Source: Psococerastis gibbosa (taxonomy: Eukaryota; Arthropoda; Insecta; Psocodea; Psocidae). Taken from it: a DNA stretch of 64,000 bases. Shown in pieces: positions 3,548-58,757 of this stretch (position 1 is its first letter; each line of letters opens with the position of its first letter). The notes beneath the pieces are model-generated. The model did no database searches, had not been told where the DNA came from, and was given only the letters and a program-made list of their open reading frames with translations. Both the position numbers and the translations under genes were made by a program. Where the stretch lies: contig OZ020491.1 in assembly GCA_963971405.1 (NCBI GenBank), positions 13,448,855 through 13,512,854 on the forward strand, written 5' to 3'.

Positions 3548-4460
3548 ATGGCTAGTGGACACTTGCTGTTGCTGCTAACTACAGCTACTCTCATAGGTAA
3601 GAAAATTTGTTAAAATAGGGCTCTCCATGATTATTCGTAGGCCTACTCAGCACTTAAGATCAACAAACACACAAAAGAACAGTTTAGACCTATGGGCATT
3701 GGGCTAAGCCCGTTTAAGGGGAAATTTTTAATTATAAAATAATATTAACTGATTTAAAGAAACATAAACTTTATTGGAAGTACGGTAAGTATGAATGAAT
3801 GTACAGGTATACGTATTGTGTGTCATAGTATGCTATTGTATGGAGTATGGTTGTAATGTTTGTTGTTGCGTTGTATTTTAATTAATTTAGGTTCTTGAAA
3901 AAATAATACAATCTTGAAGTTTCCATGTTGAATTTATTACTTAAAACAAAATGGCCGCTTCCACTCGAAGCGCCTAGATTTTTACATTGTTTACGGCACT
4001 TGGGTTTCTATGAACCATTTGTGAATTATTTTTCTGAATAAATTATAGTTTGGTGAGTAGGTACCTATTTTATATCCATAGGAACTCCCACTCCCAAACT
4101 ATTAATATGTTTTAATCTCCCGTGTAATAAGAGAGCCACGTTTCTGACCCATAGGTGGCTTATGCCCAGTTCCACTAACGCATGAGAAGTATAAGTAAGG
4201 AATACGTCCTCCTGTATTCCTTACCGAGACATTTCAAGCGATGATGGGAACTACCCTTAACTTACAATTATTGCTTTTCTATCTCAGGATTATGCAGCGC
4301 CTTAGGCTGGCAGTCTACCAACGACCTGCAGCAAGCGACTGCGACTGCACTGTCGCCTCAGGGCAACTGGTGGGAACAAGTGGCCATGCCGGTCCTGAAG
4401 GAGATCTTTCGCCAAGCGGCCAAGCCTGTCCTCTTCTTCTTCCTACTCTTTGTCAGCTAA
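3548..4460 (+). CDS. Gene A: small secreted orphan protein with hydrophobic C-terminus
   Basis: Two exons: 3548-3596 and 4288-4460, 73 residues. Exon 1 encodes a signal peptide (MASGHLLLLLLTTATLI) and ends one base into a codon before GTAAG. Exon 2 follows a TCTCAG acceptor (phase 1). The mature part starts near LCSALGWQ, has one Cys (19), a WWE at 44-46, an amphipathic stretch LKEIFRQ at 53-59 and a very hydrophobic end (PVLFFFLLFVS). TATA lies at 3507 and AATAAA at 4519-4524. I do not recognise the family. A' (16015-17468) is its duplicate, and the C-terminal half resembles C. A membrane-active or host-interaction peptide is possible but is inference. The gene model is well supported by the conserved paralogue structure. 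Confidence 0.75.
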
Positions 4461-4518
4461 ACGTATAATCTCTGGGTTGTAATCCATGAAACGTCTACGC
4501 TTTACATTGAAAAATGTG

Positions 4519-4524
4519 AATAAA
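4519..4524 (+). terminator. Poly(A) signal of gene A
   Basis: AATAAA, about 60 bp after the stop at 4458-4460. Confidence 0.6.
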
Positions 4525-4857
4525 AAATAATCATGAAATTTTTAATTTTTTTTATTTGTCAATATTTATAGGGCGAAAGTGTAAATAAATTAAATGCAAA
4601 TAAGTCTAATATAAGTCAAATAAGTACAGGCTGTGGTGCCACTTCCCCATCGCCCTGCAATTTAAATGGGAATTACTTACACTTGTTTTTATCTTATTCT
4701 TTATCCTATTTGCGATAAATTTTTATTTTCTGTTGGTATGCTAGTCCTGCAGTCTCTACAAAAGCTGTTAAATTGTTATTTCAAACTAAAAAAAGACACT
4801 ATAACATTCGTGATTAACGATTAGGTATCGCAAGCTGCAAATTTAATTAAAAATAAT

Positions 4858-4911
4858 TAGGCGCCAGGAGTAATGTCAGGATTGTCACACGACAACACCT
4901 TACTATATAAG
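4858..4911 (+). promoter_or_regulatory. Gene B promoter: conserved upstream block plus TATA
   Basis: TATATAAG at 4904-4911. The 40 bp before it, including TAGGCGCC and GTAATGTCAGGATT, is nearly identical in B' at about 18729-18782, where surrounding intergenic DNA has drifted more. The ATG follows about 60 bp downstream. Confidence 0.65.
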
Positions 4912-4965
4912 GGACACAAAATGAAATAGGCAGCCACACACAACATTGTCGTACTCGAGTGCATC

Positions 4966-6637
<1,672 letters not shown>

Positions 6638-6675
6638 TATTTGCCTTGTGAAATTGACAGAAATAAGATTATGAC

Positions 6676-6792
6676 AAACTAATACCATACACACACAACA
6701 CAGACAACAACACCGGCAACTACAAACCAGAAAGCGCGTTTACCCACACGGGTCTGGCGCTTAAAAAATATAAAAAAAAAATATATAAAAAA
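6676..6792 (+). mobile_element. SINE-like insertion with target-site duplication
   Basis: 117 bp ending in an A-rich tail, flanked by AAGATTATGAC at 6665-6675 and 6793-6803. The B' copy (about 20095-20125) has a single uninterrupted site, so this insertion came after the B/B' duplication. Confidence 0.75.
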
Positions 6793-7239
6793 AAGATTAT
6801 GACGCTTTTAGATTCACTTTCAATTCTTCTGTTGTAGAGGGACTAACTGAATTAAAACAATAGTTGTGCACACCGTCTAATATTTTTTTACCTAATTCTG
6901 ATTAAATTAATTTATAGGCAGCCGCGATCATTAAAGGCAGGTTTATAAACATCCACAAGATACGTTTTTACAAATGTCGGGCCAGAATTCAAATCATTAG
7001 GCTCGATTGCTACATTATACCTACCGAATTTAAGAAAGAAGAAACAAAAATTGTCTTAAGGCAAAATTAGGCAGTTCTGTTTACGGTACTCCTAAAATTA
7101 ACCCAAACGTGAGTAGGTGCTGCTGGCTATGTGATGAGGGATTAGATTAAAGTTAGGTCGTTTGACCCTGGTGGGCCTTGCGAATCGCTTTGACCTTAAG
7201 ATCTATTGCGATTGTGATGAGGGATATAAAATATCCCCT

Positions 7240-7470
7240 TTTATAATTAATAAAATAATATAAATAGGCCTATATAATAAATATTGACCTTTTGTTCTAT
7301 GATTAAGCCAACCTGGCGGAGTTAGGGCTACACTGTAAAGCACTCTCTTACACTCAACTAAGATAGCCCGGGACCGCCTGCTTTGCATGTAGCAAAGTGT
7401 GGAACTAGAACCAACAACCTTCGTTGTCGGTAGTTGTCGGAGTCTGTAGCACTAGGTACTCATCTGCATG
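7240..7470 (-). mobile_element. SINE family 2 copy (reverse)
   Basis: Reverse-strand tail (GGGCTACACTGTAAAGC) and degenerate box B (GAACTAGAACCAACAACC), matching the copy at 5700-5900. Confidence 0.5.
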
Positions 7471-7834
7471 TCCTTTTGTATGTTATAATCAAAGGGAATA
7501 TCCAGATTATTATTACTATTATTATGGAAACTATCTAAACTAGCTAGAAGTGGCTTGTAAAGAGGAAGAACATGCAGAGGCTCGGACCATATACTTGTAG
7601 ATATACTGTCGAATTTGGAATGACATTAATTACCCATTGATGTGACATAGGGTAGGTATCGGGGGGCAGAAGGGACGCTTCAACTTCAGGTTCTTGAGTG
7701 GACGCTTACCACCGGGCTGAAACGGGATTTGTGGCAGAATTGCAAAGGTAGATGTTTATGTTTCAGAGACTTTAAATACTTTTAAACAGTTTTTAAAGAT
7801 TTTTAAGTGGTCTCAAATCAGTCAGCAGGGCTAG

Positions 7835-9170
7835 TTCTAAGTACCCAAACCAATCCCTCCACAATAAAATTTATTTAATTAAAGGATCATTTGGGCACAA
7901 GTTCCACTACTCCTTCACCGTTCATGAATTTCCTAGGATGCGGAAAGTCCAGTTGTTGTTTGTTGGGTGCCTGTTCATTAATCCAACGTCGGCATAATTT
8001 ATGGGCTTCTGCGGCGCCATTGTTGAGCGTTAAGGCCGGCGACATACTATCCCATTTTGCCGGATGCAGCTGAGAGGGATGCGTCTGAGAGGGATGCGGC
8101 TGAGAGGGATGCGGCTGAGAGGGATGCGTTCTGGCGGGATGACACGACGCTGCCACACTGTCCGGTGCGACCGCGTAAAAATAGCTGATTTTACTCTTGA
8201 TCCGATCAGTCGCATGGACGCATTCAATAAACTTGTCAATGTCGAATATTACAACCGCGCGGTACAGACGGACCGTGTGACTGGTCTCACTCAACTGAAT
8301 GTTTATTTGTATTTGTCCCATCGTCCGGTCAGCCTTTCCTGCCGCAGCACCATCCGGTCGATTGCGGTTAGCACGGTGCAACCGGAACAGTGTGATTATT
8401 TGATTATTTGGCCTAAGGCCGGTGACATACTATCCATTTTGCCGGATGCGGCTGAGCGGGATGCGTTTTGCCGGGATGACACGACGCTGCCACACTGTCA
8501 GGAGCGACCGATTAAAAATGGCTGATTTAAGTTTTTTATACTCTTGATCCGATCAGTCTTACTCGAGTTATAGTGTCGCATGTGTTTAAATGCCATCTAG
8601 CGGGTGACTGGCCTCACTCAACTGACTCTTTATTTATTTGTCCCTGCCGCAGCACCATCCGGCCAATTGCGGTTGACACGGTGCCACCGGAACAGTGTGA
8701 CCAGAGTAGACTCCATGCATTTATGCCATCCCTTCAAACCGGTCCCTTTTGGCTGGACGGTGCGGAGGGATAGTATGTCGCCTGCCTCAGGCCCATTGTT
8801 ATGGGTCCTATCAAAATAATTAGTTTATTAATGAAAAAAACTAGAGTCTAGAAGTACCTATTATGAAATGTTCATTAATTAAGGGAAATTCAAGGTTAAT
8901 GTTTTTTAAAATACGTCGTTCTTATAGGTATTAATTAATGGGCAAACATTTAAGGGCTTCTGCGTCGCCATTCTTAGGCTAACATTACATTACGGCAGGC
9001 TTATCGTCACGGGGCTTATCAAAATAATTATTTTAATAATGAAAACAACTAGAAGTACCTACCTATTATGAAATGTTCATTAATTAAATAAAATTCAAGG
9101 TTAATGTTTTGTCAATGCGTCGCCATTATAGGTATTAATGGGCTTCGCAGTGCCTCATTATTCCAGTTCC
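7835..9170 (+). promoter_or_regulatory. Gene C upstream region: tandem repeats of about 190 bp
   Basis: Repeated unit beginning GGGCTTCTGCG-CGCCATT, then a CATTACATTACGGCAGG / ATCAAAATAATTATTTTAATG block and ATGAAATGTTCATTAATTAA, ending GGTATTAATTAATGGGC. Units begin near 8005 (split by a foldback element), 8940 and 9130, the last running into exon 1 of gene C. The same unit precedes C' and the gene-less block at 21430-22140. No clear TATA box. A regulatory role is inferred from its position before every C copy. Confidence 0.55.
8031..8795. mobile_element. Composite foldback element inside the C promoter repeats
   Basis: Inverted ends GGCGACATACTATCC (8037-8051) and its reverse complement near 8768-8782. 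The interior has two diverged repeats of about 380 bp (GATGACACGACGCTGCCACACTGTC-type blocks at about 8129 and 8476). A 15-bp minisatellite (CTGAGAGGGATGCGG, four units, 8070-8129) lies near the left end. It splits the first promoter repeat unit, which continues at about 8800. Confidence 0.6.
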
Positions 9171-9185
9171 CCAAAGAACCTTACA

Positions 9186-10450
9186 ATGACAGGAAGCTAT
9201 TGGATATTTCTTACTGCTCTAATTGCATCCGTTGGTAAGACTTTTTATGCATTTTAATAACTTAAAAATGATGATGAATCAGTAGAAACCGGGATGATAG
9301 GCCGTGGTCATCCTAAAAGTGTACTTCCAAAAGTTTCGTCAACATCTGCGGTCGACATCATCAGTGGAACTGCGGTTACACAGAGAGGCTATAGAGATCT
9401 ACAAGCACCCTCAGAACTTCAATGGAAAGGAAGAAGGACTCAGAAGTCAACAGAATTTGGTATCCAGCCTTAAGCAAGACCACAACTAGGAAACTGGCGT
9501 CATCATCCGGAAATCAGGTTGAGGTAGTAGGGAGCCAATCAGGTATGAGGAAGACTCCGCCTCCACCCCCCACCACTCCGCAACTTAGTATAAATATCAG
9601 AGCGCATCCCCCTGCCGACACAGTTGCTGCTGCTGAGCTTCCAAGATACAATCTTAGAAGTCTACGCAATTCCACTGAAGATGTCGACCGCAGACGTTGA
9701 CGAAACGTTTGGAAGTACACTTTCAGGACGACCACGGCCTATCGTCCCGGATTCTACTGATTCTTCATGAAACTCCGGCCGTGAAAGCCTTTGAAATTAT
9801 ATTAAAAATGATGAATATCGGAAACAATTGGTAAGCCTACACAGAAATATGGGACAGTCCATTGCGTACCTTTTGTACCTTCTTCTCTTGAATATGCAGT
9901 ACCTAAATAGTGTTGACTTACAGCACATCACACATCAGTGCCACCCATCTAAATATAAGTGGATGAAAAAGTAATAAATACTAAATATCTAGCTGATTTG
10001 CATTAAGTATATAGGAGATAACGGGAAGCCAGACAATGCAGCAAAAGCAACAAGAATCAAAATAGGAGCTAAATCTTAATGCAAAGGAATATCAATGCAA
10101 ATCAGCTGCAGCAGAAAAACTTGATTTTGCTTGTAAAAACATTGAAATTGACAGTTAGGTTATTATTGGCTCACAACCTCATAGGCTAGTTTGATTTTGT
10201 TTTAGCCTTCAGCAATGGATCTTTTCAACCGGATGGGCAGTTACAATTCGTCAACGGAAATCAAATTCAGTCTGTGCACCTGTCATGGCTGACAAAATTG
10301 ATGCAAACCAGAGAAATGCCTCCAATTTTGCAGGAATGGTGGGATCTTTTCACAAAGTCCCCCTTGTATCCGCCCGTAAAAGAAATGGTACGGCAAATGG
10401 TGGAGCCTACTCTCAGAAAATATTGTTTTGAATATTGCCCAAGATTTTAA
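9186..10450 (+). CDS. Gene C: secreted orphan protein, 97 residues
   Basis: Exons 9186-9234 and 10206-10450, phase 1. Exon 1 encodes MTGSYWIFLTALIASV. Exon 2 starts after TTTTAG with the split Ala and FSNGSFQPDGQ. The second exon lacks an early Met, so a plain ATG-to-stop search misses it. Mature features: WWD at 61-63, amphipathic VKEMVRQMVEPTL from 74, and a C-terminal C-x3-C (Cys90, Cys94). The last 40 or so residues are nearly identical in C', whose N-terminal half is longer and diverged. The WW[DE] and KE-x(2)-RQ-x(3)-P-x-L pattern recurs in gene A. The intron holds a foldback element. Function unknown. Confidence 0.78.
9285..9790. mobile_element. Foldback element in the gene C intron
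   Basis: Long imperfect inverted ends: about 9290-9375 is the reverse complement of about 9665-9762 (GACGAAACGTTTGGAAGTAC block on the right). Related single-ended or short copies are at 24465-24590, 31202-31275, 41930-42110 and 58548-58715. Confidence 0.65.
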
Positions 10451-11207
10451 AAGAAATATTGTACTATCATAATCTATACAGGTCTAAGGCATAGAACTCT
10501 ATTTTAGCCTGTAATATTTACCGTACGGTATCGTTATGTTTTTTTTTTTTTTTTTTAATTGGGTTCATTGTATTACATTAGTTATGCTATAATAATGTTG
10601 AACACAGAGCTACTACTGTAGTACAACATGATTGCATTTTCTAAAATCATTGATTACATGCTATTGTATATACTGCCGTATTTATTATACCTACTAAAAA
10701 TGAGATCCTTTTCTATGTTAGGGGGTAGGCCTGTTTTATGATAATATATAACCTTGACTGTTCTTGTTAGGAAATTGTTCTCCTTTGCGTTAGAATTGAT
10801 GAATGCCACCGCTGAGCATTAGTACATGGGGGGGGGGGATGTTAAAATTGGACGCTTTTGTTATGTTACGTAAGAGGACGGCACCCCTCATGTTCCAATA
10901 ATTCTAACGAAACTTTTCGAAACGTTAGTTTCGAACCCTAACGCAGATGAATTAAGATGCAGTTTACTAATTACTTAGTGGGGCACGTGAAAACTTTTTC
11001 CTTCACAAATCCGGATCTTTTTCGTTAGGGGAATAAGGTGTTGCTTCCAGGAGTAAAAGGTGGCCTTGTACCCAGGTAATAGAGCAAATCATCCAATTAT
11101 GAAACCGGTTGTCTTTTTTTACCATTTACTCGTGAAACAAATAGTTAATTCGGTTAATTCCACTGAAAATGCAGCAGTACAGCATAACAACTCTCTTTTT
11201 TCAATGG
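10451..11207. other. No gene seen
   Basis: AT-rich DNA with a T tract at about 10538-10556 and a G tract near 10828. No coding frame or recognised repeat. Confidence 0.4.
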
Positions 11208-11215
11208 AGTAGCCT

Positions 11216-11460
11216 CAGGCTTGGACCTCCCTCCCCCATTAGGTTCTTCAAAATGCGTAAAACCCCACTATTTTTCACAAATTTTCTCCCGGGGGAGAAC
11301 CCCGGGCCCCCCTTGTGCCCGATTGTATTAATTACCTATATTGTAATTTAGAACCCTTATTCCTCTGAGAACCGTAAAACCCCAATATCTCAGCCCTATT
11401 TTTAAAAAAAAATTCTTATTTAATCTTAGCCCCCTCCCCCTCATTCTAGATCCGCGCCTG
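11216..11460 (-). mobile_element. hAT-like MITE, 8-bp target duplication
   Basis: 245 bp between AGTAGCCT (11208-11215) and AGTAGCCT (11461-11468). The right end is GATCCGCGCCTG. The interior contains AAAATGCGTAAAACCCCAC and C/G tracts. Relatives: 54660-54950 and 62686-63149, with a fragment at about 46730-46890. Confidence 0.8.
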
Positions 11461-11819
11461 AGTAGCCTTGCATTTTACCAAGTAGCCTATCTGTTAATCA
11501 GATTGCAGTGACCATTCCTCAATTTCACAACAACCCGCTCTAAGTAGCGGGGATCGCATTTTCTACATAGTCTATCCATTTGTTCTGTTACAAATTTTTC
11601 TTTGGGGAAAAATAGGCCTTCATATCTCAAGAGGCGACTTAGGGATCACTTCGATATCTATAGGTAGATGTTACGAGCCATCAGCACAGTTTGGTTGCGC
11701 TTTGGTTTTCGTCCAATGCGTTCTGCCATCGCTTTTACAATTTTCGGGGTTCTAGCTGAGCGAGGTTGACCGGATTTTGGTTTGTCCTCAATTTTGCATG
11801 TCTCACTTATCGTAGCCAC

Positions 11820-12599
11820 GGTACGATAAACAAAAAGAACCGGTCCGAGTTTACTCGAACAAGCTTTCCAATTTATCAACATTAGTAGATCTTCTTCTTC
11901 ATCATCAGCCAACGCCCGTCCTTGGCTATGGTAGGCCATTTGACGCACATTAGTAGAGAGAGAATATGAGTAATTTCCTGGTAAATAATTTTCCAATGGT
12001 TAAATTTCCGTTATTTCGGGGGGGGGGGGAGGTTGTCCACCTTACGTCACTGGAAGTGAGATTAATTCTAGAAAAGTCAGACCAACATATTAATTACCAC
12101 ACAGCAATAATTGCGGGGCACACAATGCATTTGAGCGCGAATTTTCTAACATTTTTTCAAAAAATAATTTTTTGCGCAAAGCCAAATATTTTTGGGGAAA
12201 GCAACCAATACGGTTTCGATACTCAATTTAACACCTAAAACATACCTGAAGGTAGAAATCATCGATAGAAAGGTTTCGCAGAAATATTATTTTTTAGTCA
12301 TTTTCATTAAAATTTACATATTTTTATTTTTTTACCCCCCGAAGCAAACTATCAAGGGGCAAGCGACCCCCCGCATTTTATCAACATTAATAACAACTAC
12401 AATATATGAGAATTTAAAAGAAATCGTTGGAGCCGTTTTCGAGAAATAATTTTTTTATACGTTTTTTTGGAGTTTTTTGAGAATAAACCCCCCCAAATTG
12501 AGTTAGCCCCAAATAAAAAAAATGGTCCCAAGGTATGATTTTTGTGAACCTAAGCCGAATTTCATCAAAATCGACCGAGTAGTTTGCCCTGAAATCAGC

Positions 12600-12636
<37 letters not shown>

Positions 12637-12760
12637 GGCAGACATTTCGTAAAAACCACTTTTTTGGGTTCCTGGGACCTTAAAACGTGTAAATCCATTG
12701 AAATCTCGGAATCGAAAATTTCGACCGTCACAAAGCTTTCCTTATACTACGCATAAATTG
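11820..12760. mobile_element. CAGA-repeat interspersed element
   Basis: Shares with 50550-51375 and 36350-36900 an end near GTCCGAGTTTACTCGAACA, a middle AAATCGTTGGAGCCG block, a (CAGA)n run (here about 12597-12642) and the other end near CAAAGCTTTCCT. No coding capacity seen. Class unknown. Confidence 0.6.
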
Positions 12761-12959
12761 GAAAGCAATAAACAAACCAACCAGCGGCTGCAAGAGCACT
12801 TTTTCTGTAACTACCCTTCTAGCTATATTACAGAGATAGGCTACCCGGTTCTCTGTCATTCCCCATTTTTTGGATTTTTGAAATGAAACCTTCAGAGATA
12901 AATAACAATAGACAGACAATGTTAACATAAGCAGTATCACAAAGATTAAAAAAGATTAA

Positions 12960-13205
12960 AACTTTTTTGAATACAGTGGAGTAAACATTTGTAGTAGTAG
13001 TATGGTTTGACATAGTCCCAGGCCACGGTGTGGGCCCATAGGACTCCAGTGGACCTCCTGATTATAGTGGATTCCGAACCACTTGGGGAAACACAGTGAA
13101 GTCACACGATTAGTTCGGAGGTGACCAGGATAAGTCCTGCCATGTTTCCCTACCGGCAATGTGCACACGACCAATTTATCTGCAGCTTTGAACCTGCTCT
13201 GGTCC
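12960..13205 (-). repeat. Interspersed repeat, pair with 63710-63950
   Basis: About 220 bp, the reverse complement of 63720-63945, running from a TAG-repeat end to GAACCTGCTCTGGTCC. The match is high enough to give a similar open frame in both, but the frame is not a recognisable protein. Confidence 0.65.
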
Positions 13206-14039
13206 GCTGGATAAACATTTGTAACCTTTCATTTGCGACACAATTTTGCACCAATTGCACCTTCGCTTTTGTGCACAATTAATTAATGTCCACATTATAA
13301 TAATTTTTAATAATAATTTAATTTTTAAGAGCAATTATGAAAGATGCTGGGTCCTTGCTAGTCGTAAATTAAACCCCTATTTAAGTCTTTCATAATAATA
13401 ATACTAGTTTTTATAATGACTATGGGCAGGTTATGCTGCACATATTTCTAAGTTCAGGTTAACACTTAACAGTCACTAGCCTATATCAGTATTATATTCT
13501 CGGATCTGATAAGTGTATGAAACAACTATACGATGAGGGTCAAATGATCGAACACAGAATAAATATGGGCGTCAATCTAGCAAAAATACATACTACAATA
13601 CATAGGAGTAAATTTAGGTTGCCACGGGACTCCAGCCCGTAGCCAGGATTTTTTTTCGGGGGGAGGGGGGAGGGGGCTGTGGCAACTGTGTTCCTATCTA
13701 GTGTAAATTTATTTCTTGAGAATTCAATTGTATCTATAGTGTATTGTTTAGAGGTTATGGTGTTACTCGTATATATATATGATAGCATACGCACATCAAA
13801 CGGCAATTTATTGGAGGATTTAGCTTCGGTGCGAACACAGGTTTATAACATTTTGCGGATATGTGGCCTAAATTATAAGTGTAAAATAGTGGGGTTCTAC
13901 GCATTTTAACAGCAGTAAAGTGTGGATTTTACAAAGCCCACAAAAGAATACTCATTCATAGAAATTATTTTGCATTTAACACCAAATTTTGAAAATGTAA
14001 GTGCAAAACAGTGGGGTTTTGCAGCAGGAAATACATATA
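13206..14039. other. No gene seen
   Basis: AT-rich. A decayed end of the G-tract MITE family (CCGTAGCCAGGATTTTTTTT) is at about 13637-13700. Confidence 0.4.
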
Positions 14040-14796
14040 GATATATGTTATTGGCGCCACACCTTGACTTAATGTTACCAGAATAATTAATTAATATTTT
14101 GACCTTTTCACCCGATAAAAATTCCCCTGGTTGTAATTAATGGCAAAATGATAAAAACATTTATAATGGTCTATTGCTGCATTATGCCCATTAGCCTCTA
14201 ATTATAAAGCCTGCTGGTAGAATTCAGGCGCGAGCTTAAGTTTTTAAAGAAAGGGTTCAGCCCTGAAAAATATATATTGTTGTTGACATAATTACGAGAG
14301 ATTTAATTGATGAATTCTACATAATAAGCAGAATCATTATGTAATTTTTCGAAATTTATTTCAGAAATAAATCTCCCTTTCTAACACACTTGTGGATTAG
14401 ATTTTTACCCCTAAATCCTTTTAATTTTAACTTAGCACAGGCTGCACAGCCTATGTCACTATAGTATGTTATCATATTGCAGCAGTTAGAGGTTAGGGGG
14501 TCATGACCCCCCCTCCCCCTAAATTAGTAAATTCATAAGATACCTAAAAAAATTTTTTGAATAAAACTCAACTTTACAACAACAAAAATTACCTTTTAAA
14601 CTTACAAAAGACTTGTGACCCCCCCCTAAATTTTAATTAATTAAAATTAGGTACAAAGTAGGTATTAACTTATTAGAAAGCCTCTACATAGGTAGGGGAA
14701 TTAGGTACCACCCCGGCCCAAGGTTTGAATCCCATTTCCATACATTTTTCTCTCATAGCGTAGTCTATGTTAGAATATGTTAGTCAGAAGTCAGAA

Positions 14797-14978
14797 CAAG
14801 GCCGTAGCCAGGATTTTGTTTCGGGGGGGGGGGGGGTTAGAAATTTCATTGGGTATTACATAGTGGTTTTTTTCCTCTGAAAATCCAATTCTATCTAGTA
14901 TGAAGCCATTTCATTTCGGGGGGGGGGGGGGGGGTTTGAACCCTCATGAACCCCACCCCCCCCTTGGCTAGGGCCTTG
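14797..14978. mobile_element. G-tract MITE (hAT-like), 8-bp duplication
   Basis: 182 bp, ends CAAGGCCGTAGCCAGG and CTTGGCTAGGGCCTTG, two long G runs inside. Flanked by AGTCAGAA (14789-14796) and AGTCAGTA (14979-14986), one mismatch. The empty site corresponds to about 1190 in the duplicate. Confidence 0.82.
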
Positions 14979-15083
14979 AGTCAGTATGCTATAATCTTCC
15001 GATCAATTGAAGAATGTGAAGTGACATTATCACAATATTTATATAAGGAACGCGTAAGTTACACGAATTTCGAAGTAAGTCGA

Positions 15084-15255
15084 CTTCGATGGCCAGGTGG
15101 TAACGTGCTTGCACTTGTGCTAGTCTTTACACGCCATGCGATCGGAGACGTGTCGTAGCTCAACACGGGTACTAACCTATAGAGGTGACTGAAAAGGTCA
15201 ATCGGATACATTCATTAAATTGTTTGTATGCGATTAATCTTTTTAAAAAGAAAAA
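15084..15255 (+). mobile_element. SINE family 3 copy
   Basis: Begins GACTTCGATGGCCAGGTGG, carries GATCGGAGACGTGTCGTAGC and ends TTTGTATGCGATTAATC plus T-rich DNA. Other copies: 34190-34330 (-), 47235-47365 (-), 47425-47590 (+), 53535-53690 (-), 56108-56285 (+), 57618-57785 (+). Confidence 0.7.
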
Positions 15256-15604
15256 AAGAAGAAAAAAAAAGTAGGGTAATGACACATAAATATACAGTAT
15301 AGACTGCGCATGCCATAGGCTAAGTATGCTACTGAACCTTGACAGGCTGTGACTGGCTCATTGGGTGGAACCCCTTCCTTCGGTGGGCTTTAATACTTAT
15401 TGCAGCCAGAGGCGTATTTATGCTACGTGCCACCCTGTGCTACCCAACTATATTGTAAAGAATGTAAATAATTCTAATTAACATACTAGTGTTAATTTTG
15501 AAGTACTTAGTAGTCCGCCCACCCCCCGGCGGAAAGGTTTAAAAAAAACAAAACAATAAAAGGTTTTGTAAACGCAGTATTGATACCAAAACCAGCATTC
15601 AAAA

Positions 15605-15746
15605 GGCGGGGTTCCCACATACGTCAATGGTCAATGGTAAATATGGTTTTGACGTGATAGTAGACATTTTTAGTATGTCTTTAATGTCTGCTAAAGCGTC
15701 AATTTCATATTTCTCATTGACCATTGACGTATGTGGCAACCCCGCC
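15605..15746. mobile_element. Foldback MITE, 142 bp, 3-bp duplication
   Basis: Nearly complete palindrome: GGCGGGGTTCCCACATACG at the left, its complement at the right, AAA on both flanks. Same length as the copies at 25122-25263 and 26993-27134. Confidence 0.8.
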
Positions 15747-15944
15747 AAATTTCCCAGTCAATTACGGTATTTTTATTGTTATTTTTCTTAATTCGTTCCT
15801 TAAAAGTCTAAAACAGTCACTAATACCCATCTAATTAACATTAATCATTTCCCCAGACATTAATTGCATTTTCCTGTTGTTTTACAAAAATATGGAATGC
15901 CAATTTAACAATTCGTTTCTCCTAATTAATATTAATGAGAGGGG

Positions 15945-15951
15945 TATAAAA
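15945..15951 (+). promoter_or_regulatory. TATA box of gene A'
   Basis: TATAAAA, about 64 bp before the ATG at 16015. Confidence 0.6.
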
Positions 15952-16014
15952 GTTACTGTATGTTTTAACTACAACTTACTGTATGTTTGCTGCTAGTACT
16001 AAGTACAGTTCAAA

Positions 16015-17468
16015 ATGGTTCGAGAGTCTTGTCTGCTTTTTGCAACAGCCGCTTTGTTGATTGGTAAGATCTTTCAGTGATATAATAAATAAATAATTAA
16101 ATAATATACAGTATATAATGTGAATCATAGTTGTCAGAACAAACCAAAACGATCTCCAAAATAATCTGCTTAATATCGTATAATAGGCTAGGTTTTCAGT
16201 TATAAAAACTATTTTTTCCTAATTCACACAATTTGGAAAATTTATACAGGTTATCGTAGGTACTGATTTCAATTCATGACTTAAGTCATAAAACGAAACA
16301 CAAAAATGGCAATACGCAATTGAGAAAAGTACCATTTCTACTTTTCCCCCCTTAATGCCACGTGCGTAGGGTGGGGGGGGGGGGGGTCGCCCCGGACCCA
16401 TTTCTTGAACTCGCTCCGCTCGGATTCTAACACCTTGAGCTCGAGCATTGATTTCCTTCTTGCTCTTGCGAGTTGTTCAATCCTTTCCTCGAGGGTTGTC
16501 CTCGGTCTGCCGATGGGTCTTCTTCCTTGTGGCCGAGAAAAGTACATCAACTAAGCTAACCAGCTAACTTCCCAAGAAGAATTCCAAAAAGAGTCATATT
16601 GGGCGGTAATCGTTACTGCATCGTCATTGTGACGAGTATAATCACATTACCAGCCACGACAAGATTAATAACAATACTCATTTCTTCCCAAATCAATTAT
16701 TCAAACAATTCCTATTGGCCTTGAATACATCGTTTCCAATAAATTTGTTCAGACTAACTAACTCACAATAGAGATTCAAATTATTGCGGATGTCCGCCCC
16801 AGATATGAAAGTAAAGAGAGGTGTAGGTGAGCAATTTGACGGCCTTCGCACATTTTCGGCAGCCAAGTCGCGCCTCCGCACCAAGGCTTTGATCTTAAAC
16901 TGATTCGGATGCCTGGAGTACTACTGCATATCCAGTTTCTTCGTAACTGTTAAATCAGCAGCCTGATCGAGGCGATTATGATACCGGGGTTAAATAAATA
17001 CCCTAGGATTATAACTGTAGCAAACAAATTTTGAATAGCACTTTCCATTATAAAATTATCTTGTTTACATTTTTAATACCAGGGGATTAAATAAATACCA
17101 GTATTATAAACGCCTCGATCAGGCTGCTGAAGAAACCAAAAATAAAGTAACTTATGCATTCACTATCTTTGCCTCTTGTTACAGGAGTAATTGCAGGACA
17201 GCCGCAGAAGCGCAGCGTGGACTCTGTCACAGAGCCGCCTTCCCAAGATGCGCCAACAGCAGTAACCACAGCAACACCACCACCACCACCACCACCACAG
17301 CAACCAACGAGTCTCAATATGCTATTCAAACGTACAGAAAACCGCTTCCTCCAAAATGATACAGGCAGGAGTCTGTGGGAAACTGCGCAACCCGTTTTGA
17401 CAAGGTTTCTTCATATGGCAGCCAAACCAATCTTTTACTTTTTCCTGATGTTTGTCATGCAAATGTGA
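16015..17468 (+). CDS. Gene A': secreted orphan protein with polyproline and dibasic sites
   Basis: Exons 16015-16063 and 17185-17468, phase 1, 110 residues; AATAAA at 17501-17506. The signal peptide MVRESCLLFATAALLI runs into GVIAG with likely cleavage after VIA. Mature part: QPQKR (dibasic), an acidic/Pro/Thr stretch, a run of seven prolines, LFKR (second dibasic), then LWETAQPVL and the hydrophobic end AAKPIFYFFLMFVMQM. The last 30 residues align with gene A (WE, PVL, AAKP, FFL-FV), while the N-terminal half does not. The dibasic sites suggest processing by a prohormone-type convertase (inference). It sits where A sits in the other cassette. Function unknown. Confidence 0.75.
16335..16550 (-). 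pseudogene. LINE endonuclease/RT C-terminal fragment in the A' intron
   Basis: The minus strand reads GRRPIGRPRTTLEERIEQLA followed by a charged stretch, typical of the C-terminal tail of non-LTR retrotransposon polyproteins (GRP-x-R motif). Truncated by a C tract at about 16372-16386. Confidence 0.5.
16955..17130. mobile_element. Foldback MITE (CCTGATCGAGGCG ends)
   Basis: Inverted ends CAGCAGCCTGATCGAGGCG and CGCCTCGATCAGGCTGCTG. Internally the TACCGGGG and TACCAGTATT blocks relate it to longer relatives at 22495-22815 and 59370-59755; 51725-51880 matches its interior in reverse. Confidence 0.7.
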
Positions 17469-17509
17469 TCCTGAAACTTGTAGCCGTTCGGCGAAACGAT
17501 AATAAATAA

Positions 17510-18186
17510 ATATTTCTGACTGAGATGTTATTTTCTCTATTAATAAGATGTTCATATAGACGATAAAATTTATTTAAGGCTTTACAAGTGCACCAACTTT
17601 GAAAAATGTAGGTTATTTTTTTTTCCAAAGAACAATTAGTAGCATATGTAGAATAAGCATATTTACATAAACACCGGTAATTACATTTTTGTTTTGGCAT
17701 ATAAGATTTGTGTCCTTTTGTAACGGCTGAAGCTAATCACAGATATTTACTAAATTACTTCTGGCGGAGCAACTCGAACACTAAAATAATATCATTAATA
17801 ACCGTAAGATTGACTGAAGATAAACATATAACGAAAGCAACAGACTACCCCATAAAATTAATTATTTTTAATTTGCTCCAATAAACTTACTGAATTGACC
17901 CTAGATACTGGGAAATGTATATACTAGTAATATTCCACAAAATATATATATATTGGACAACTACGGTTACCCCTCTGTAAAATTGATACACAATTTATAT
18001 ACAGTTCATAGTTTTCAAAATTTTGGTGTAGGTACCGTACAGTGGTATCGTAAATAATTGTCTCGTGATTGAATATGCGTTGCCTATAGATTTTCCCCAT
18101 CCTATAGCATTGGATTGAACATTTCTTTTCTTCGTTTCGGGATCCGTCTCCGTTGCTTTCGATTTATATTATATATCACCCTTGAT
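17510..18186. other. No gene seen
   Basis: AT-rich DNA after gene A'. No repeat family recognised. Confidence 0.4.
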
Positions 18187-18357
18187 CAAGGCCGTGCCCA
18201 GGTTTTGATTCGGGGGGGGGGGAGGGGACTTTTCACACAATTGATTAATGAATTAATGGATGAATTCTTCAAACAATACAGGTTTACATAAATAAAAATA
18301 TTTCGGGGAGGGGGGGGGGGTCCGGACCCCTTGGACCAACCCCTGGGCACAGCCATG
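18187..18357. mobile_element. G-tract MITE (hAT-like), variant with GTGCCCAGG end
   Basis: 171 bp, ends CAAGGCCGTGCCCAGG and CTGGGCACAGCCATG. Flanked by CCCTTGAT on both sides (18179-18186 and 18358-18365). Confidence 0.82.
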
Positions 18358-18728
18358 CCCTTGATGACCTACCGACTAAGCCACTTGACCAAAATTATCC
18401 TGGAACTGGAATACCAGTTTTTAAAACATCATTTTCCAGTTCCAGGTCTATATGTATGATGTTCTGATGTGACTGAATGTATTAGTCCCCGTTGTTTCTA
18501 CCTTATTTTATAAAAAGACGGAACTGTTGAATATCTTTTGCATCGGAGTGGGTTAAAGTATAAATATCCTATTTACCAGTTAAAAAAACTCCCAGAGTAA
18601 ATTCCGTTGGTGCTACGCCTGCCGGACCTCAAAAGGAGTCTATACAATAGCAATTCAATTAATTTTTAACTAAAAGACATAACATTCGTCATTAACGACT
18701 ATACGTGCATATTAAATTAAGCATAATT

Positions 18729-18782
18729 AGGCGCCTAGAGTAATGTCAGGATTAGTCACACGACAGCATTTTTCTATATAAG
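18729..18782 (+). promoter_or_regulatory. Gene B' promoter block and TATA
   Basis: TATATAAG at 18775-18782, preceded by the same GGCGCC / GTAATGTCAGGATT block as gene B. Confidence 0.65.
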
Positions 18783-18835
18783 CGACGCAGAATGAAATAG
18801 GCAGCCACAAACATTGCCGTATACTCTAGTGCATC

Positions 18836-20078
18836 ATGTTAGGAGTTTGGATTTTCCTAATTTCAACCGCCGCACTATTTGGTAAGAACAGCACTATAGT
18901 TAGTTTACGACTGAAACTCATAGGCAGCTTTTAAAATAAAAGTCTCACCTCCCAGGCCCCACTTTGCTACCAGACAAATTTGAAAATCCATCTTTATAAT
19001 TCATGTATACGACAACCTCGATAACTTCGACACCCCAGGTTGCAGTCAGGGTATAGGTAGGTAATTATTTGCTCTGAAGCAAACCAATATATAGACAATT
19101 GCACTACAGTCTACAAAAGACATCGTGAAACTTAACTAATATGACAAAATTATGCAACAAACTAAATTTAAAAACAAACATATTTTATAAATATTCAAAC
19201 TATTAAAATGTGTAACTATATCTGTACCACAATAGGGCTACTCCTTAAAGGAAATATAGCCTAATGTCGTTACTGCATAAGTATGCACTGCATGCACCAT
19301 AACATGTTAAAAATTGATTTGACAATGTATTTATATATTATAGGCTATCTTATCTTATCAACTTTACTCTATTAGCCTACTGCTAGTACATGGAATAAAG
19401 TATAAAATAAGTTATAATAACTACTATTAGGTATAGCTGACGACAGCGCTGTGAGTTTTATAGTAAACAACTTAACCTTTTTTTAGTAGACACACTCCAC
19501 CACTCGTAAGTTGCTTCAGTTGCTTTTATTGTTATAACAGAGGGAGAGTAGCGTGTCTCCATGAATGACATGAATATTTATTGGGCAGACCGGTCTATTA
19601 TATCTGATACACGGCTTCAAGAGGATACAGGCCATAAACTGTGATCGGTTGACAACATGAACTGTCATGGCTGTCACAAAAAGTTGCTGATTTCGATATC
19701 AAAAAATTATTATCCTCATAACCATGTCCATTGCTTATTGTGCATTCAGTCATTCAGCAATATTTATATAGCTTTCTTGCTTCAGGCATGAACCAAGCAG
19801 CCAGCACTGGCATCACACAAATTGCTGAACCAAGTGCTACTGGCATCCCACCACCTGGCGACAAAATGCAGACCGGCAGATCAATGGGAAATGCTGATAT
19901 TTCTATAGCAGGCACGAATAGTGACGAAAGCTTCAGAGCAAGCATTCAAATATCTGACTCTAATGCAGTTGCAATCTCCAAGATGTCTACTTTCGATTAT
20001 ATCATGCATAACATCGTAAAATTCTTAAAAAATATTGCTAAGCATATAGTGCTTTCTCTTTCTTACAATACTTTTTAA
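18836..20078 (+). CDS. Gene B': secreted orphan protein, 112 residues
   Basis: Exons 18836-18881 and 19786-20078, phase 1. The signal peptide MLGVWIFLISTAALF and split Gly lead into MNQAASTGITQ. Compared with B, the N-terminal Ala/Gln stretch is shorter and the blocks DKMQTGRSMGNADIS, IQISDSNAVAISKMSTFDYI and NIVKFLKNIAKHIVLSLSYN are retained. The last 25 residues differ mainly by conservative changes, as expected if the C-terminal helix is under constraint. No Cys. The intron lacks the NUMT and MITE found in B. Confidence 0.78.
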
Positions 20079-20329
20079 TATTTGCATTGTGAAAATGATA
20101 GTAAATAAGATAATGTTCATGCTTTTAGATTGACTTTAGATTCTCCTTCATATTATCGTTTATGAGGATCAACACAATTAAAACAATGCACACTTTATTA
20201 TCGTCTTATTTTTTTGCCTGATGATCCATAGGCCATATTAAATTAATTTCTATTTGCCGTACTTAATTGTTTTATGTTACAATGCAGTTTTATTTCAGTT
20301 GTTTAATAGGCTAATACTTTGTCGTGCCT

Positions 20330-20690
20330 AAATAAATACAGGCAGTAGGCTTATAAACTTCCACAAGGCATGTTTTCACAAATGTCGCATCGAAATTCAA
20401 ATCATTACGAAAAAAGAAAAAAAAAACATTGTTTTGGTGGTGAATTTTAGGCAGTTCGTTCAGTTCAATTCCACAATTAATGCAGTATACTGAGTTGGTG
20501 GAGGAGCAGCCATAGGTATATAAGGCCTGAGCGCTAGCTCCCATCAGAAGAAGAACATTCTTGTTAAAAAATATATACAGCTGTGATTTGGCAAGAGCAC
20601 AACAACCCTTTTCAGAGCAGCACTCTGCTGAAGGTCTAAATTGATCGCCAATCTTAGCTAGAATAGGTATATAAAGAAGAAGAAGAAGCA
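20330..20690 (-). repeat. Interspersed repeat with CTGCTCT motif, pair with 53195-53400
   Basis: On the minus strand, AAGATTGGCGATCAATTTAG and then GCTGCTCTGAAAAGGG, matched by AAGATTGGCGATCATTATGG and CTGCTGCTCTAAAAAGGG at 53226-53285. It starts after CTT repeats. The open frame is not a known protein, so I take it as a dispersed repeat, possibly a LINE tail. Confidence 0.45.
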
Positions 20691-21429
20691 ATAAATGAAG
20701 ATAGTATAAAGGAGAAGTGTCGAATTGGGAATGTCAATATTGTTACCGATTGATGTGATCATCATGAGTAGAGGAAGAATAGAGGAAGATTGATGAGATA
20801 TAGGCTAGGTTTTGCGGCGTCACGTGGGACAGAAGGAACGCTTCAAAACAGATCCTTGAATGCACGCTTACCAACGGGGTGAAACGAGATATGGTGGTTT
20901 AATCGCAAAGGGAGGGTAGAGTGTCTCCGCCAAGGATGGTTTGGACAGGTTACTATCCTGCTCACAGAGACCTACATCTGATACTAACGGTTACCAAGCA
21001 GGAAACAAACTTATGAGTTTGAGAGACTTTTTAAATTTAAAATAACAACCTTTCAACAGTTTTTTCTAAGTTTTGGGAATGTTGTGAGACCGTCAAGGCC
21101 GTAGCTTAGATTTGGGACGGGAGGGGGGGGGGGGTATGTAAGCTAGCCTAAAGCCCGAGGCTACCATAGTAGTGTATACCGAGCCTAAGAAAGCAAAACA
21201 GGATCTTGGTAAATCCAACAAAACAATATAGAAAGAACAAAACAAATTTATTCAATATTACCTGTATTTAAAAACGACCTTTTGAAGGCACTGGCAAATA
21301 ATGTAAGTATACGAAAATACATTGTGGATGATTCCCCCCCCCCACCCCATAAATACGGCCTTGTAAACCGTGAGTAGGCCTAATTCTACTTGTACATAGC
21401 TAACCCAATCCCTCCATTAAATCTACAAT

Positions 21430-22140
21430 ATATATAATTTAAGGATCATTTGGGCGCCCAACACTATAAATTCCTCTTCAACTTTATCAGCACAACTTAA
21501 TTCTTGCGGAATAGTCCAGAATTCGTTACTGTTGGGTGCCAGTCCATATAGGCATAAATTTATGGGATTCTGTAGCGCCATTCTTTACATTACATTTTCA
21601 TCACGTCATAGGTCTTATTAAAAATATAATTATTTTAATGATGAAAACAAACTATGATGAAAAGTTCATTAATTAAGGGAAATTCATCAAGGTTAATGTT
21701 TTGAAAATACGTCGCCGTTAGGTATTAATTAATGGGCTTCTGAGGCGCCATTCTCAACATTGCATCACGCCAGAGTCCTATCAAAATAATTATTTTAACG
21801 ATGAAAACAACTAAAATTACTTAGGCTATTATGAAATGTTCGTTAATTAAGTGAAATTCAAGGTTAATCTTTTTAAAATGCATCTCCCTTGGGTATTAAT
21901 TAATGGGCATACATTTAAGGGCTTCTGCGAAGCCATTCTCAACATTACATCACGGCAGGCTTATCGTCACGGGTCTTGTTAAAATAATAATTATAATGGT
22001 GAAAAGAACTATCTGTAGCAATTCCGAAAATTTAATGTTCATTAATTGAGTATTAGTGTTCTTTAAATTATGCATCACCTTTAGGTTAAATGACGGGCTT
22101 CACTGTGTCTCGTTATTTCAGTTCCCCAAACTTTATAGCT
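21430..22140 (+). pseudogene. Gene-less copy of the C promoter region
   Basis: Three tandem units of the C upstream repeat (starting near 21560, 21735 and 21905), then the start-region signature CTCGTTATTTCAGTTCCCC at 22109-22127, as in C and C'. No ATG-GGAAGCTATTGG exon follows; a short diverged stretch leads to a foldback element at about 22495. I read it as a C paralogue whose gene body was deleted. Confidence 0.6.
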
Positions 22141-22494
22141 TGTGTATTTTTAGCATAGACATTATGAAAAAGGTAAAAGGAAAATGTACTGTATGAGCTC
22201 TTTTTCATATTCAGAACAAATTAATTTTACTTATCAGCATCTGCTTCCGGACAATGATTCAAAGCTCGACAAATATAGGTGACGCTCGTAGTTTAAGTCT
22301 TAGCTAGAAATTATGAATACAGCTTGCCCTTTTATTCTTGTAAAAAACTTTTTCTCCGGAGGCAAACACTCTTATTATATAATACTATATTGCTTGGAAA
22401 TTGAGAAAAAATGAAAAATAAACGTATGCTTCATCTTAGGAATTTGGCTGATTAACTGTACTAAAAATTTCACATCTCTCCTGCAGCCCAATTA

Positions 22495-22815
22495 TGGCGA
22501 TTTGGGATTAATACCGAGATTTATTCAATTGTTTTAAACAAGTGCAAAATGCGCGGGAACTCAAATTGATAAATTAATATTTTTTGTGAGTTTTCAATTT
22601 TTGCTCCCTTAGATATGTAGACACATTAATTATAATTCCTATTATATTTCAAAATTCTACCTGTACATTTTAAAGTTTATTAGTATTTTTTTTCATACAA
22701 TTCTACTAATTTATTAATTTGAAATTCCCCCGCATATTTTAATACCGTCACGTGACATATCATACGATATCGGTATTAAAAAACAAACCCCGGTATTATG
22801 TTAATTCCAAATCGC
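22495..22815. mobile_element. Foldback element
   Basis: Ends ATGGCGATTTGGGATTAATA and AATTCCAAATCGCCAT. Internal CGCGGGAA / TCACGTGAC blocks are shared with 59370-59755. Confidence 0.65.
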
Positions 22816-23104
22816 CATAGGGCTGCCGGAGATGCGATTTAATCACTACCTACCTCACTGCCTCTGGCTGGCAAGCAGACGCATGTAGGTGCATCACGAG
22901 CTTTCCTGAAGTTCATCGTATATATCAGGTATACTTTTCACTACTTCAAATTACTAATAAAACGGTTCTCAAACTTTCAGTAGGATTACACCCCCACCCC
23001 CCCCCCCCCCCCAAGTAAATACATTTACCGACAGTTTTGCTAAATGCTACAGATAATCGGTTTGGTTCACTAAGTCTTCTTCCAAAGAGTAACGGGTACC
23101 AACT

Positions 23105-23440
23105 AGAAAACATATGTATTAGTAGGCCTATGTCTACATTTCCAACCCAATTCCTCATTAACACAATTTATTTAATTCCTGTTTAATTTCATCAAGAAAA
23201 GTCTATTGCTGTTGACTGTAGGGGGCCTGTCCATTATCCTATCATCTAATGGCGCCATTCTTAAGTATTACATTACGGTAGGCCTATCGTAATGGGTCGT
23301 ATCAAAATTATTATTTTAATGATGAAAAACACTAATTAATAGTACCTATTGTGAAATGTTCATTAATTAAGTGAAATTAAGTGTTTTGTAAAGGTTTTAA
23401 TAGCCTTCACTGTCCCTAATTATTTCAGTTGCCCAAAAAA
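23105..23440 (+). promoter_or_regulatory. Gene C' upstream region
   Basis: One copy of the C-type unit (ATGGCGCCATTCTTAAG at about 23249, ATCAAAATTATTATTTTAATG, ATGAAATGTTCATTAATTAA-like) followed by TTATTTCAGTTGCCC just before exon 1. No TATA box seen. Confidence 0.5.
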
Positions 23441-23447
23441 CCTTACA

Positions 23448-24254
23448 ATGAAAGGAAGCTATTGGACATTGCTTACTGCCCTAATTGCATCTGCTGGTAA
23501 GACTTGGGATGCATTTTTAGCTTTATAATGATTATTATTATTAGCATTATCAAGGCTGTAGCCAGGATTTTTTCGGGGGGGGGGGGGGGTTAGATATTTC
23601 ATAGGATATTACTTAGTGGTTTTTCCTCTCAAAACCCTTTCTATCTAATACCAAGCCATTTCATTTCGGGGGGGGGGGGGGTTAGAACCCTCCCTTGGCC
23701 ACGGCCTCGAGCATTATGAATATCGGAAACAATTGGTACGTACATTGAAATATGCTGGATAGCCAATTGGACCATCAAAAAACAATACAAAACAATAGAG
23801 AAACACGAATTCGAGCAAAAGTTTAAAGCAACTGAATTCCGCTAGAAATCAGCAGTAATCATTCTTGATTTTTGCGAGCAAAACATATGGAAATTGACAG
23901 TTAGCTTATTGGCTGCCTCCCCCTATGTATAGGTAGTTGAGTTTTGTTAAATTTCCAGCCTACAGCAATGGATTTATTCAACCGAATAAACAAGTAACAT
24001 ACGACACGACAGCACCTTTCGTTGCTGAAAATCAAATTAAAGGAGTAAAAATCCATGGAGGTGCGGGTAACAACTTCTATCAGCAGCAGCCGCCATGGCA
24101 ATTGATGCAGAACGGCAAAATGGCGCAAATTATGAAGGAATGGTGGGATAGTTTCACAAAGTCTTCCATATATCCGCTTGTGAAAGAAATGGTTCGGCAA
24201 ATGGTGGAGCCCACTCTCAGAAAATATTGTTTTGAATATTGCCCAAGATTATGA
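23448..24254 (+). CDS. Gene C': secreted orphan protein, 114 residues
   Basis: Exons 23448-23496 and 23959-24254, phase 1. The signal peptide MKGSYWTLLTALIASA plus split Ala leads into YSNGFIQPNKQ. The middle is expanded relative to C (GGAGNNFYQQQPPWQ), then EWWDSFTKSSIYPLVKEMVR and the C-terminal C-x3-C (Cys107, Cys111). The last 40 residues differ from C at only a few positions, against a poorly alignable middle. The intron carries a G-tract MITE (23551-23709). No function recognised. Confidence 0.8.
23551..23709. mobile_element. G-tract MITE (hAT-like) in the C' intron
   Basis: 159 bp, start CAAGGCTGTAGCCAGG, two G runs. Perfect 8-bp duplication AGCATTAT at 23543-23550 and 23710-23717. 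Confidence 0.85.
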
Positions 24255-25060
24255 AAGAATCAGCCTATTGTATTTCAAAATCTGGCCTAAGGTAGATTAC
24301 AATAGAATTCTAATCTCGCCTACACATTATTTACACCATGATCCGCGTATAAAAGAAATGTTCCTGCAAATGATAGAGACCGCACCCCCACTTATATGTT
24401 TTTGATAATGTTGATTAATTTTTAATTACAATTGACACTTTCACTGCATGAGTTATACACGATGAAGTAATAGAACCCGGGATGATAAACCGTGGTCTGA
24501 AAGCGTACTTAGATGTCGAAATGGGAGTACGCATTCAGATCGACCCCCAGATTCGACTGCTTCATCATTGACTAAATTAGGGCCGATCCGACGACTGATA
24601 CTTAAATTTTAAGTGACGCTTATCTTGCTGCTATTATTATTTTTATTTTCGAATCAGCTGACGTAGTTAGCCTATGTCAGCCAATTCAATCACTCCACTT
24701 CACTTTTTTCCCAGTCCGGTAACCACCCTGGGTAAGGTACAATAAATTGAAAATATAATAATAATAATATAAAAAGATGAGAGGACTTACATTTTAAGTA
24801 AAGCTTATCTTGCTGTTATTATTATTATTATTATTAACTGATTTGAAATTAAAACTAATTTTTTTTTGCTAACACAGACGTGAAATAGAAAACATGTTGC
24901 ATCATCTACAGCGTTTACTGTGCGAGCCCCCGACAAGTTGATTAACTTGGGGGCCCACAGGTTATTTGTATTATAAGGGTATAATTGTTAATTTATAAAT
25001 ATATTCCTTCGGCGCAAGGGAGTACCGGCCGAAGAAGCAGAAGAAGAAAAAAAAAAGATT
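24255..25060. other. Repeat debris after C'; no gene seen
   Basis: A short copy of the 9285-type foldback (24465-24590), an element with CAGCTGACGTAGTTAGCC and (AAT)n tail (24650-24780, paired with 26575-26700), and a tail ending near 25040 (GGCCGAAGAAGCAGAAG). Confidence 0.5.
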
Positions 25061-58715: not shown

Positions 58716-58757
58716 CCATATAAAGGTTTTTATCCTATTTATATTTATATATTTCAG

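Follow-up and report, generated by a model that had tools for sequence, protein, structure and literature searches.

Introduction

The seroins of Lepidoptera are described as small silk-gland proteins that form paralogous classes and carry a signal peptide, variable proline-rich linkers and a conserved C-terminal part (PMC6405961), and the promoters of the silkworm sericin and fibroin genes are described as being regulated by Antp and Awh (PMC5831788). The locus that is compared with these systems here belongs to the barklouse Psococerastis gibbosa and lies in a 64,000-nucleotide stretch of contig OZ020491.1 (assembly GCA_963971405.1, positions 13,448,855 to 13,512,854), which will be called the window and is taken to be on chromosome 8; it carries eight small-protein genes, A1, B1, C1, A2, B2, C2, D1 and D2, whose letters denote four protein families. 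The parasitic lice are close relatives of the barklice, and lineage-specific clusters of secreted-protein genes are already known in insects.

The preferred explanation of the locus, for which belief and doubt are about evenly balanced, is that at least eight genes form a lineage-specific cluster, putatively co-regulated and encoding an exocrine-gland secretion, which evolves by birth and death. “Lineage-specific” here means that no relatives were found in the sets searched, which included no other insect genome. The explanation starts from the observed gene structures, homologies, duplication history, ratios of nonsynonymous to synonymous substitution (dN/dS) that in B and C are smaller than 1, and enrichment of particular sites upstream of the genes.

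Gene structure

The genes A1, B1, C1, A2, B2 and C2 follow one another in that order, all on the plus strand, and their models were rebuilt base-exact from the A1 ATG at 3548 to the C2 stop at 24254. The two-exon plan that a first-pass annotation of the window had proposed for them, with a first exon of 46-49 nt, a phase-1 intron with donor GTAAG and a single second exon, was reproduced exactly: exon 1 is 49, 46, 49, 49, 46 and 49 nt long in the order given, it ends in phase 1 at a GTAAG donor in all six genes, and the remainder of each protein is encoded by one exon 2. A1 (exon 1, encoding the signal region, at 3548..3596; exon 2 at 4288..4460) encodes a protein of 73 residues with a hydrophobic C-terminus, and A2 (16015..16063 and 17185..17468) one of 110 residues in which a proline-rich linker precedes an A1-like hydrophobic C-terminus. 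The products of B1 (4966..5011 and 6297..6637), which has an amphipathic cationic C-terminal helix, and of B2 (18836..18881 and 19786..20078) are 128 and 112 residues long. C1 (9186..9234 and 10206..10450) encodes 97 residues with two cysteines near the C-terminus, and C2 (23448..23496 and 23959..24254) encodes 114, the last 24 of which differ from those of C1 at one position.

The acceptor of each of these genes is an AG behind a mostly pyrimidine-rich tract, which is poorest in C2. Intron lengths vary within the paralogue pairs; exon-1 length, phase and donor are identical. Signal peptides were assessed by hydropathy and by eye. The proposal that exon 1 encodes a signal peptide and nothing else holds in that exon 1 supplies most of the signal peptide, but not in the strict form, since the likely cleavage sites of the A and C proteins, placed by eye, lie a few residues into exon 2. 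TATA-like boxes occur 42-70 bases before the ATG in six of the eight genes (A1, A2, B1, B2, D1 and D2), and none was seen within 75 bp of the ATG of C1 or C2. A poly(A) signal word occurs at most 200 bases past the stop in A1, A2, B2 and D1, and none was seen within that distance for B1, C1, C2 or D2.

When both strands of 94 kb were scanned for signal exons of this kind, 16 candidates came up, and 7 of them belong to the cluster. The exon-1 pattern alone is therefore unconvincing. The gene models are convincing because the partners in each pair keep the length and phase of exon 1 and because, in B and C, amino-acid change is lower than silent change; judged in this way from the sequence, the six gene structures are confirmed and the genes look real.

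On the minus strand, the same scan found a further two genes built in this way, D1 (32191-30600) and D2 (29382-27273), each with a 67-nt first exon (32125..32191 in D1, 29316..29382 in D2) that ends in phase 1 at a GTAAG donor. Exon 2 of D1 (30600..31042, 443 nt) completes a protein of 169 residues, and that of D2 (27273..27607, 335 nt), whose acceptor was chosen by frame and is less certain, completes one of 133 residues. Both products are characterized by a cysteine-rich repeat, the stretch G-x-C ... N-[IV]-C-x-C, which each contains in two copies. A search of the genome with D1 matched this locus and a broken copy on contig C20, which is taken to be the X chromosome; a second D1-D2 pair lies there at about 4.6128-4.6193 Mb, with aligned pieces some 79-92% identical to those of the window. 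Both X-linked copies are interrupted, that of D1 by five stops in the matched stretch and that of D2 by a gap and a single in-frame stop.

Several of the introns hold other elements. A COX1 fragment of the kind produced by transfer of mitochondrial DNA to the nucleus (NUMT; E 4.7e-6, a match that does not reach the family cut-off) occupies 5952-6167 in the B1 intron, and the genome as a whole, mitochondrial contig included, has 43 COX1-family matches. An element with inverted ends of about 104 bp (91%) lies at 9271-9768 in the C1 intron and is absent from the C2 intron; its relatives are found at 24418-24510 and on C20. The stretches 25267-25851 and 28259-28559 form an inverted pair with 97.7% identity over 305 bp; one of them is inside the D2 intron, and the open frames of this pair resemble, by eye, the tail of a reverse transcriptase of the long interspersed nuclear element (LINE) type.

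Duplication history

The first-pass annotation described two tandem A-B-C cassettes and suggested that the three genes had been duplicated as one. The repeated order stands, but B-C is the only demonstrable duplicated segment: the block at 4751..10475 is collinear with that at 18637..24283, both on the plus strand, and the two copies align through promoters, introns and intergenic DNA. The similarity of A1 and A2 is confined to exon 2. Since this pair shares exon 2 only and is saturated at silent sites, against a synonymous divergence (dS) of about 0.4 for the B and C pairs, it looks older than the B-C duplication, and the suggestion of a duplicated three-gene cassette is not supported. Gene order can thus recur even where one pair is apparently much older than the other two, which corrects the simple cassette picture.

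A1 and C2 share the pattern WW...P-[VL]-[LV]-K-E-[IM]-[FV]-R-Q....P-x-L, and their alignment scores 48 against a null mean of 28.7, a score reached by none of 1000 shuffles; this similarity indicates a distant homology between A and C in a C-terminal helix. A common ancestry of all four types was rejected on the same kind of comparison (shuffle p 0.69 for A-D, 0.22 for B-C and 0.10 for B-D). The C-D value of 0.05 is not significant over six comparisons, and the A-B score (p 0.018) is due to low-complexity proline stretches.

A remnant of another C gene, its 3' end, lies immediately downstream of C2 at 24336..24413 on the plus strand; it has decayed and is interrupted by in-frame stops. When the exons for the mature proteins of C1, B1 and A1 were used to search the genome (409,210,807 bases in 68 contigs), they gave 3, 3 and 2 matches: in each case the query itself and its local partner, to which C1 and B1 each add one match attributed to chance. 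The match between A1 and A2 in this search is weak (E 0.048), so that very divergent A copies elsewhere could be missed. The C remnants, the broken D pair on the X and the amplified C promoter units described below are best read as birth-and-death evolution, in which local duplication adds genes to the cluster and others are lost from it.

Selection and protein shape

Comparison of the B1/B2 and C1/C2 paralogues by the NG86 method gives dN/dS values of 0.47 for B and 0.49 for C, with bootstrap medians of 0.47 and 0.48 and 95% intervals (0.28-0.80 and 0.27-0.84) that lie below 1; the YN00 method gives about 0.58 and 0.40. A dN/dS near 1 together with frame-breaking changes, the pattern that had been named in advance as telling against these genes, was not found between the paralogues at the locus.

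Conservation is uneven along the proteins. In B, amino-acid identity is 77% over the last 30 codons, 61% in the middle and 65% in the signal region, and in C the corresponding values are 87%, 52% and 76%. The helical hydrophobic moment exceeds that of shuffled sequences in A1 (p 0.007), B1 (p 0.023) and B2 (0 of 300 shuffles). We infer that the C-terminal helix is the working part of the A, B and C proteins.

Sites upstream of the genes

The 300 bp upstream of each of the eight ATGs were compared with a background of 114 kb. Among the 1033 hexamers seen, TAATTA ranks first, with 15 occurrences against 2.67 expected (Poisson 1.6e-7, uncorrected), and five of the top six hexamers contain an ATTA/TAAT core. 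The TAATTA count is also high relative to AT-matched windows from the 114 kb (p 0.001) and to dinucleotide shuffles (0 of 500), and it is elevated in the subset A1/B1/C1/D1 (p 0.003). TAATGA occurs 12 times against 3.1 expected. Both words are homeodomain cores. When the C genes are left out, TAATTA and TAATGA together still number 15 against 5.2 expected (p 0.0055); by family, the combined count is significant for A (p 0.018) and C (p 0.0012). The AT-rich control words TATATA, AAATTT, TTTAAA and TTATAA are not enriched upstream of the eight genes, nor is TATTTAT (1 against 4.0 expected). These counts give moderate support to a shared control of the eight genes by a homeodomain factor, and with it some regulatory support to the earlier suggestion that the products of the three gene types are used together.

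The C promoter unit is itself amplified, at this locus only in the genome, with two copies in 8782-9185 and four in 21603-23447, all on the plus strand. The unit proximal to C1 (8966..9185), which carries TAATTA sites, is preceded by an extra copy at 8782..8935. Upstream of C2, extra copies at 21603..21748 and 21747..21908 are followed by a unit at 21932..22130 that includes leader sequence and constitutes a headless C copy, with no C coding exon before 23250, and then by the C2 proximal unit at 23253..23447. TAATTA is present in all six copies; a remnant C coding exon was sought between 22131 and 23250, and none was found.

Searches for relatives

The view that the mature proteins belong to no recognised family held in the sets searched. 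In Pfam, no match was obtained at E values up to 10 for A1, B2, C1, C2, D1 or D2, and B1 and A2 gave weak, unrelated matches only. That of B1 to Flu_M1_C (E 0.04) and that of A2 to Mito_fiss_reg were judged to be chance, and that of A2 to PRIMA1 (PF16101) reaches 19.5 bits against a curated cut-off of 38.6 and is a low-complexity proline match. NCBIfam yielded no named family above cut-off for any of the eight proteins, and matches to tape-measure, GspK and MreC models in the prokaryotic library were attributed to chance.

A sequence search of PDB gave nothing for B, one row for C (E 0.61) and weak rows for D, all taken as chance. Among 5.8 billion proteins, 1 candidate was obtained for C (none at E<=1), 213 for B and 229 for D, with no hit among them. 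Pattern searches gave 41 matches for C in viral contigs and 155 for B in prokaryote genomes, none of which was confirmed. The A family was compared, beyond its own genome, with Pfam and NCBIfam only. In the open-access literature, the titles among the matches listed included nothing on the locus or on barklouse secreted proteins.

Other features of the window and genome

At the far end of the window, exons for TRAF-type zinc fingers (PF02176) lie at 58566-59042 (E 6.5e-11) and 61986-62279 (E 3.3e-12), and probably represent a single TRAF gene or two in tandem. The mitochondrial contig (contig 68, 17,084 bases) contains a tandem repeat array at 7728-8108 that is likely part of the control region. 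Its gene order on the complement, with frames named by eye and from transfer RNA calls, is M-C-I-Q-nad2-W-Y-cox1 ... cox3-G-A-R-F-nad5-nad3-N-S1-E-H-nad4, which agrees with the two translocation blocks described from two Psocomorpha barklice (PMC3632521). This contig and the COX1 remnant in the B1 intron point to an insect by code and gene order, and an echinoderm source of the DNA, such as a sea star, was rejected on these grounds. The genome note for P. gibbosa gives an assembly of 409.21 Mb in 69 scaffolds, with chromosome 3 at 50.33 Mb, chromosome 8 at 35.3 Mb, X at 22.82 Mb, a mitochondrion of 17.08 kb and 17,010 genes in the Ensembl annotation (PMC12559846).

Discussion

Under the proposed mechanism, a homeodomain transcription factor would act on the TAAT-type sites just upstream of the cluster genes and activate all of them in the same exocrine gland. 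The signal peptide, which exon 1 begins to encode, would direct their products into the secretory pathway, from which they would pass into what the gland secretes. In each mature protein the N-terminal part would serve as a variable spacer, and the better-conserved C-terminal part (a helix in the A, B and C families, either amphipathic or hydrophobic) would probably attach to a membrane, to a surface or to a partner protein. The gene set itself would expand and contract through local duplication and loss. Which factor acts, in which gland, and how the helix works are all inferred, as are expression and secretion; the labial (silk) glands and the male accessory glands are the leading candidates for the gland.

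A number of observations weigh against this explanation. The signal region of B1 is weak, with N, S and E inside it, and falls below the hydropathy cut-off of the scan. Two observations count against the coding reality of the genes: mismatches by codon position (0.14/0.14/0.20 in B, 0.19/0.15/0.20 in C) have a small third-position excess, and when exon 2 is aligned as unconstrained DNA, some gaps are not multiples of three, although they compensate one another. In the A pair, identity is 43% at the C-terminus, 23% in the middle and 47% in the signal region, so that the signal region is conserved slightly better than the proposed working part. The excess of helical moment is not significant for A2 (p 0.09), C1 (0.09), C2 (0.10), D1 (0.34) or D2 (0.11). 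The regulatory evidence is also uneven: TAATTA reaches p 0.057 in the subset A2/B2/C2/D2, the D2 promoter has none, and the combined count of TAATTA and TAATGA is not significant for B (p 0.071) or D (p 0.14) alone, the enrichment residing mainly in C and A. The eight promoters are furthermore not independent, as B1/B2, C1/C2 and D1/D2 can be aligned. Control promoters of other gene families are of two kinds. Those of Osiris genes (9 of 39 matches fetched, namely those near the profile start and with no stop, of which 2 gave no start and 7 were usable) contain 1 TAATTA and 4 TAATGA; the low TAATTA count favours the explanation, but these promoters are less AT-rich (0.50-0.62). Those of chemosensory-protein genes (9 of 19 matches begin at the profile start; 4 had no start and 1 no credible signal peptide, which left 4) contain 1 TAATGA and 3 TAATTA, of which a single gene accounts for two; this TAATTA count is above background. 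With the gene that lacks a credible signal peptide included, the mean was 0.6 TAATTA over five promoters. Finally, co-location and shared sites are no proof of expression in one tissue.

The weak B1 signal region, the small third-position excess, and the existence of C remnants and of a broken D pair would also be expected if the models were decaying or non-coding remnants misread as genes, but eight uninterrupted models with splice sites, and bootstrap intervals for the dN/dS of B and C that stay below 1, make this the least credible of the explanations weighed. Antimicrobial action is suggested by the C-terminal helices of B1 and B2, which are charged at +3 and +2, have a high hydrophobic moment and could in principle disrupt microbial membranes. 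Against it, the whole mature proteins are near neutral (net charge 0, +2, +1, +2, 0 and +4 for A1, B1, C1, A2, B2 and C2), and no dibasic cut lies, by eye, directly before the helix in B or C, so that this role is unlikely. Antimicrobial peptides of the defensin type contain, when mature, at least six cysteines, a number found in none of the A, B and C proteins; counted from residue 17, there are 1 in A1, 0 in A2, B1 and B2, 2 each in C1 and C2, 8 in D1 and 6 in D2. Insect chorion, cuticle and silk genes commonly have two exons, the first of them short and encoding the signal peptide, and this plan might be taken to indicate structural covering proteins of the eggshell or cuticle. Pfam holds cuticle and chorion models, but none was matched, the proteins are not glycine-rich by eye, and the six genes lie on one strand rather than in divergent pairs, all of which makes a covering role very unlikely.

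Two explanations that specify the gland are more credible, and each is a tentative possibility. Barklice spin silk from their labial glands, a subject on which no title stood among the open-access matches listed. If the cluster encoded labial (silk or salivary) gland products that coat silk or are blended into it, comparable to the small silk proteins of moths that form no fibre, under Hox/LIM-homeodomain control as in Bombyx, its upstream TAATTA and AATTAAT words would correspond to the AT-rich Antp-complex sites described at silkworm sericin genes, with which they share ATTA cores (PMC5831788), and the proline-rich linker of A2 would be seroin-like (PMC6405961). The enrichment of AATTAAT is modest, however (11 against 4.4, p 0.017), and was examined after the hexamer result; Fkh sites, the companions of Bombyx silk genes, are not enriched (6 against 5.7 expected); homeodomain sites suit many tissues; and the proteins are not, by eye, fibres rich in glycine, alanine or serine. 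Secretion in the reproductive tract, as male accessory-gland (seminal) or female-tract proteins, is just as tentative a possibility. Orphan, tandem, secreted genes with dN/dS of about 0.5 are typical of seminal proteins, and the homeodomain proteins Paired and Abd-B act in Drosophila accessory glands, but no feature of the sequences is specific to that gland, and no homologue was found among the families described in Pfam and NCBIfam. A more specific proposal, by analogy with moth silk genes, is that the cluster is a new labial-gland (silk) secretion in which mostly unrelated families came under a shared TAATTA/TAATGA homeodomain code. We regard this as quite unlikely; if true, the amplification of the C promoter unit would represent the tuning of dosage by multiplication of a control element and not of the gene.

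The analysis yields eight gene models and a regulatory prediction. The secreted-protein families are new relative to the searches made, and the cluster, most of whose genes share one orientation, is possibly co-regulated and used in the secretion of one gland. Should a single gland express all the genes together, the locus would be a compact case of new secreted families that arise next to one another, share a regulatory code and turn over.

Comparison with known systems

The cluster resembles the lineage-specific tandem arrays of seminal or salivary genes of insects in that its genes are orphan and tandem, encode proteins predicted to be secreted and appear to evolve by birth and death, and it differs from them in that the A-D families have no detected relatives. 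It shares with the seroins the small size and predicted secretion of its proteins, their paralogous classes and their conserved C-terminal part, with a proline-rich linker in A2 only; it belongs, however, to another insect order, offers no evidence of alternative splicing, and is like the seroins by description, without a match to any named family. In comparison with the sericin and fibroin promoters, the sites of the cluster are a statistical enrichment only, and the enrichment of Fkh sites is missing, but in both cases ATTA-core, AT-rich sites lie close upstream of genes for secreted proteins, or, in the cluster, of genes predicted to encode them.

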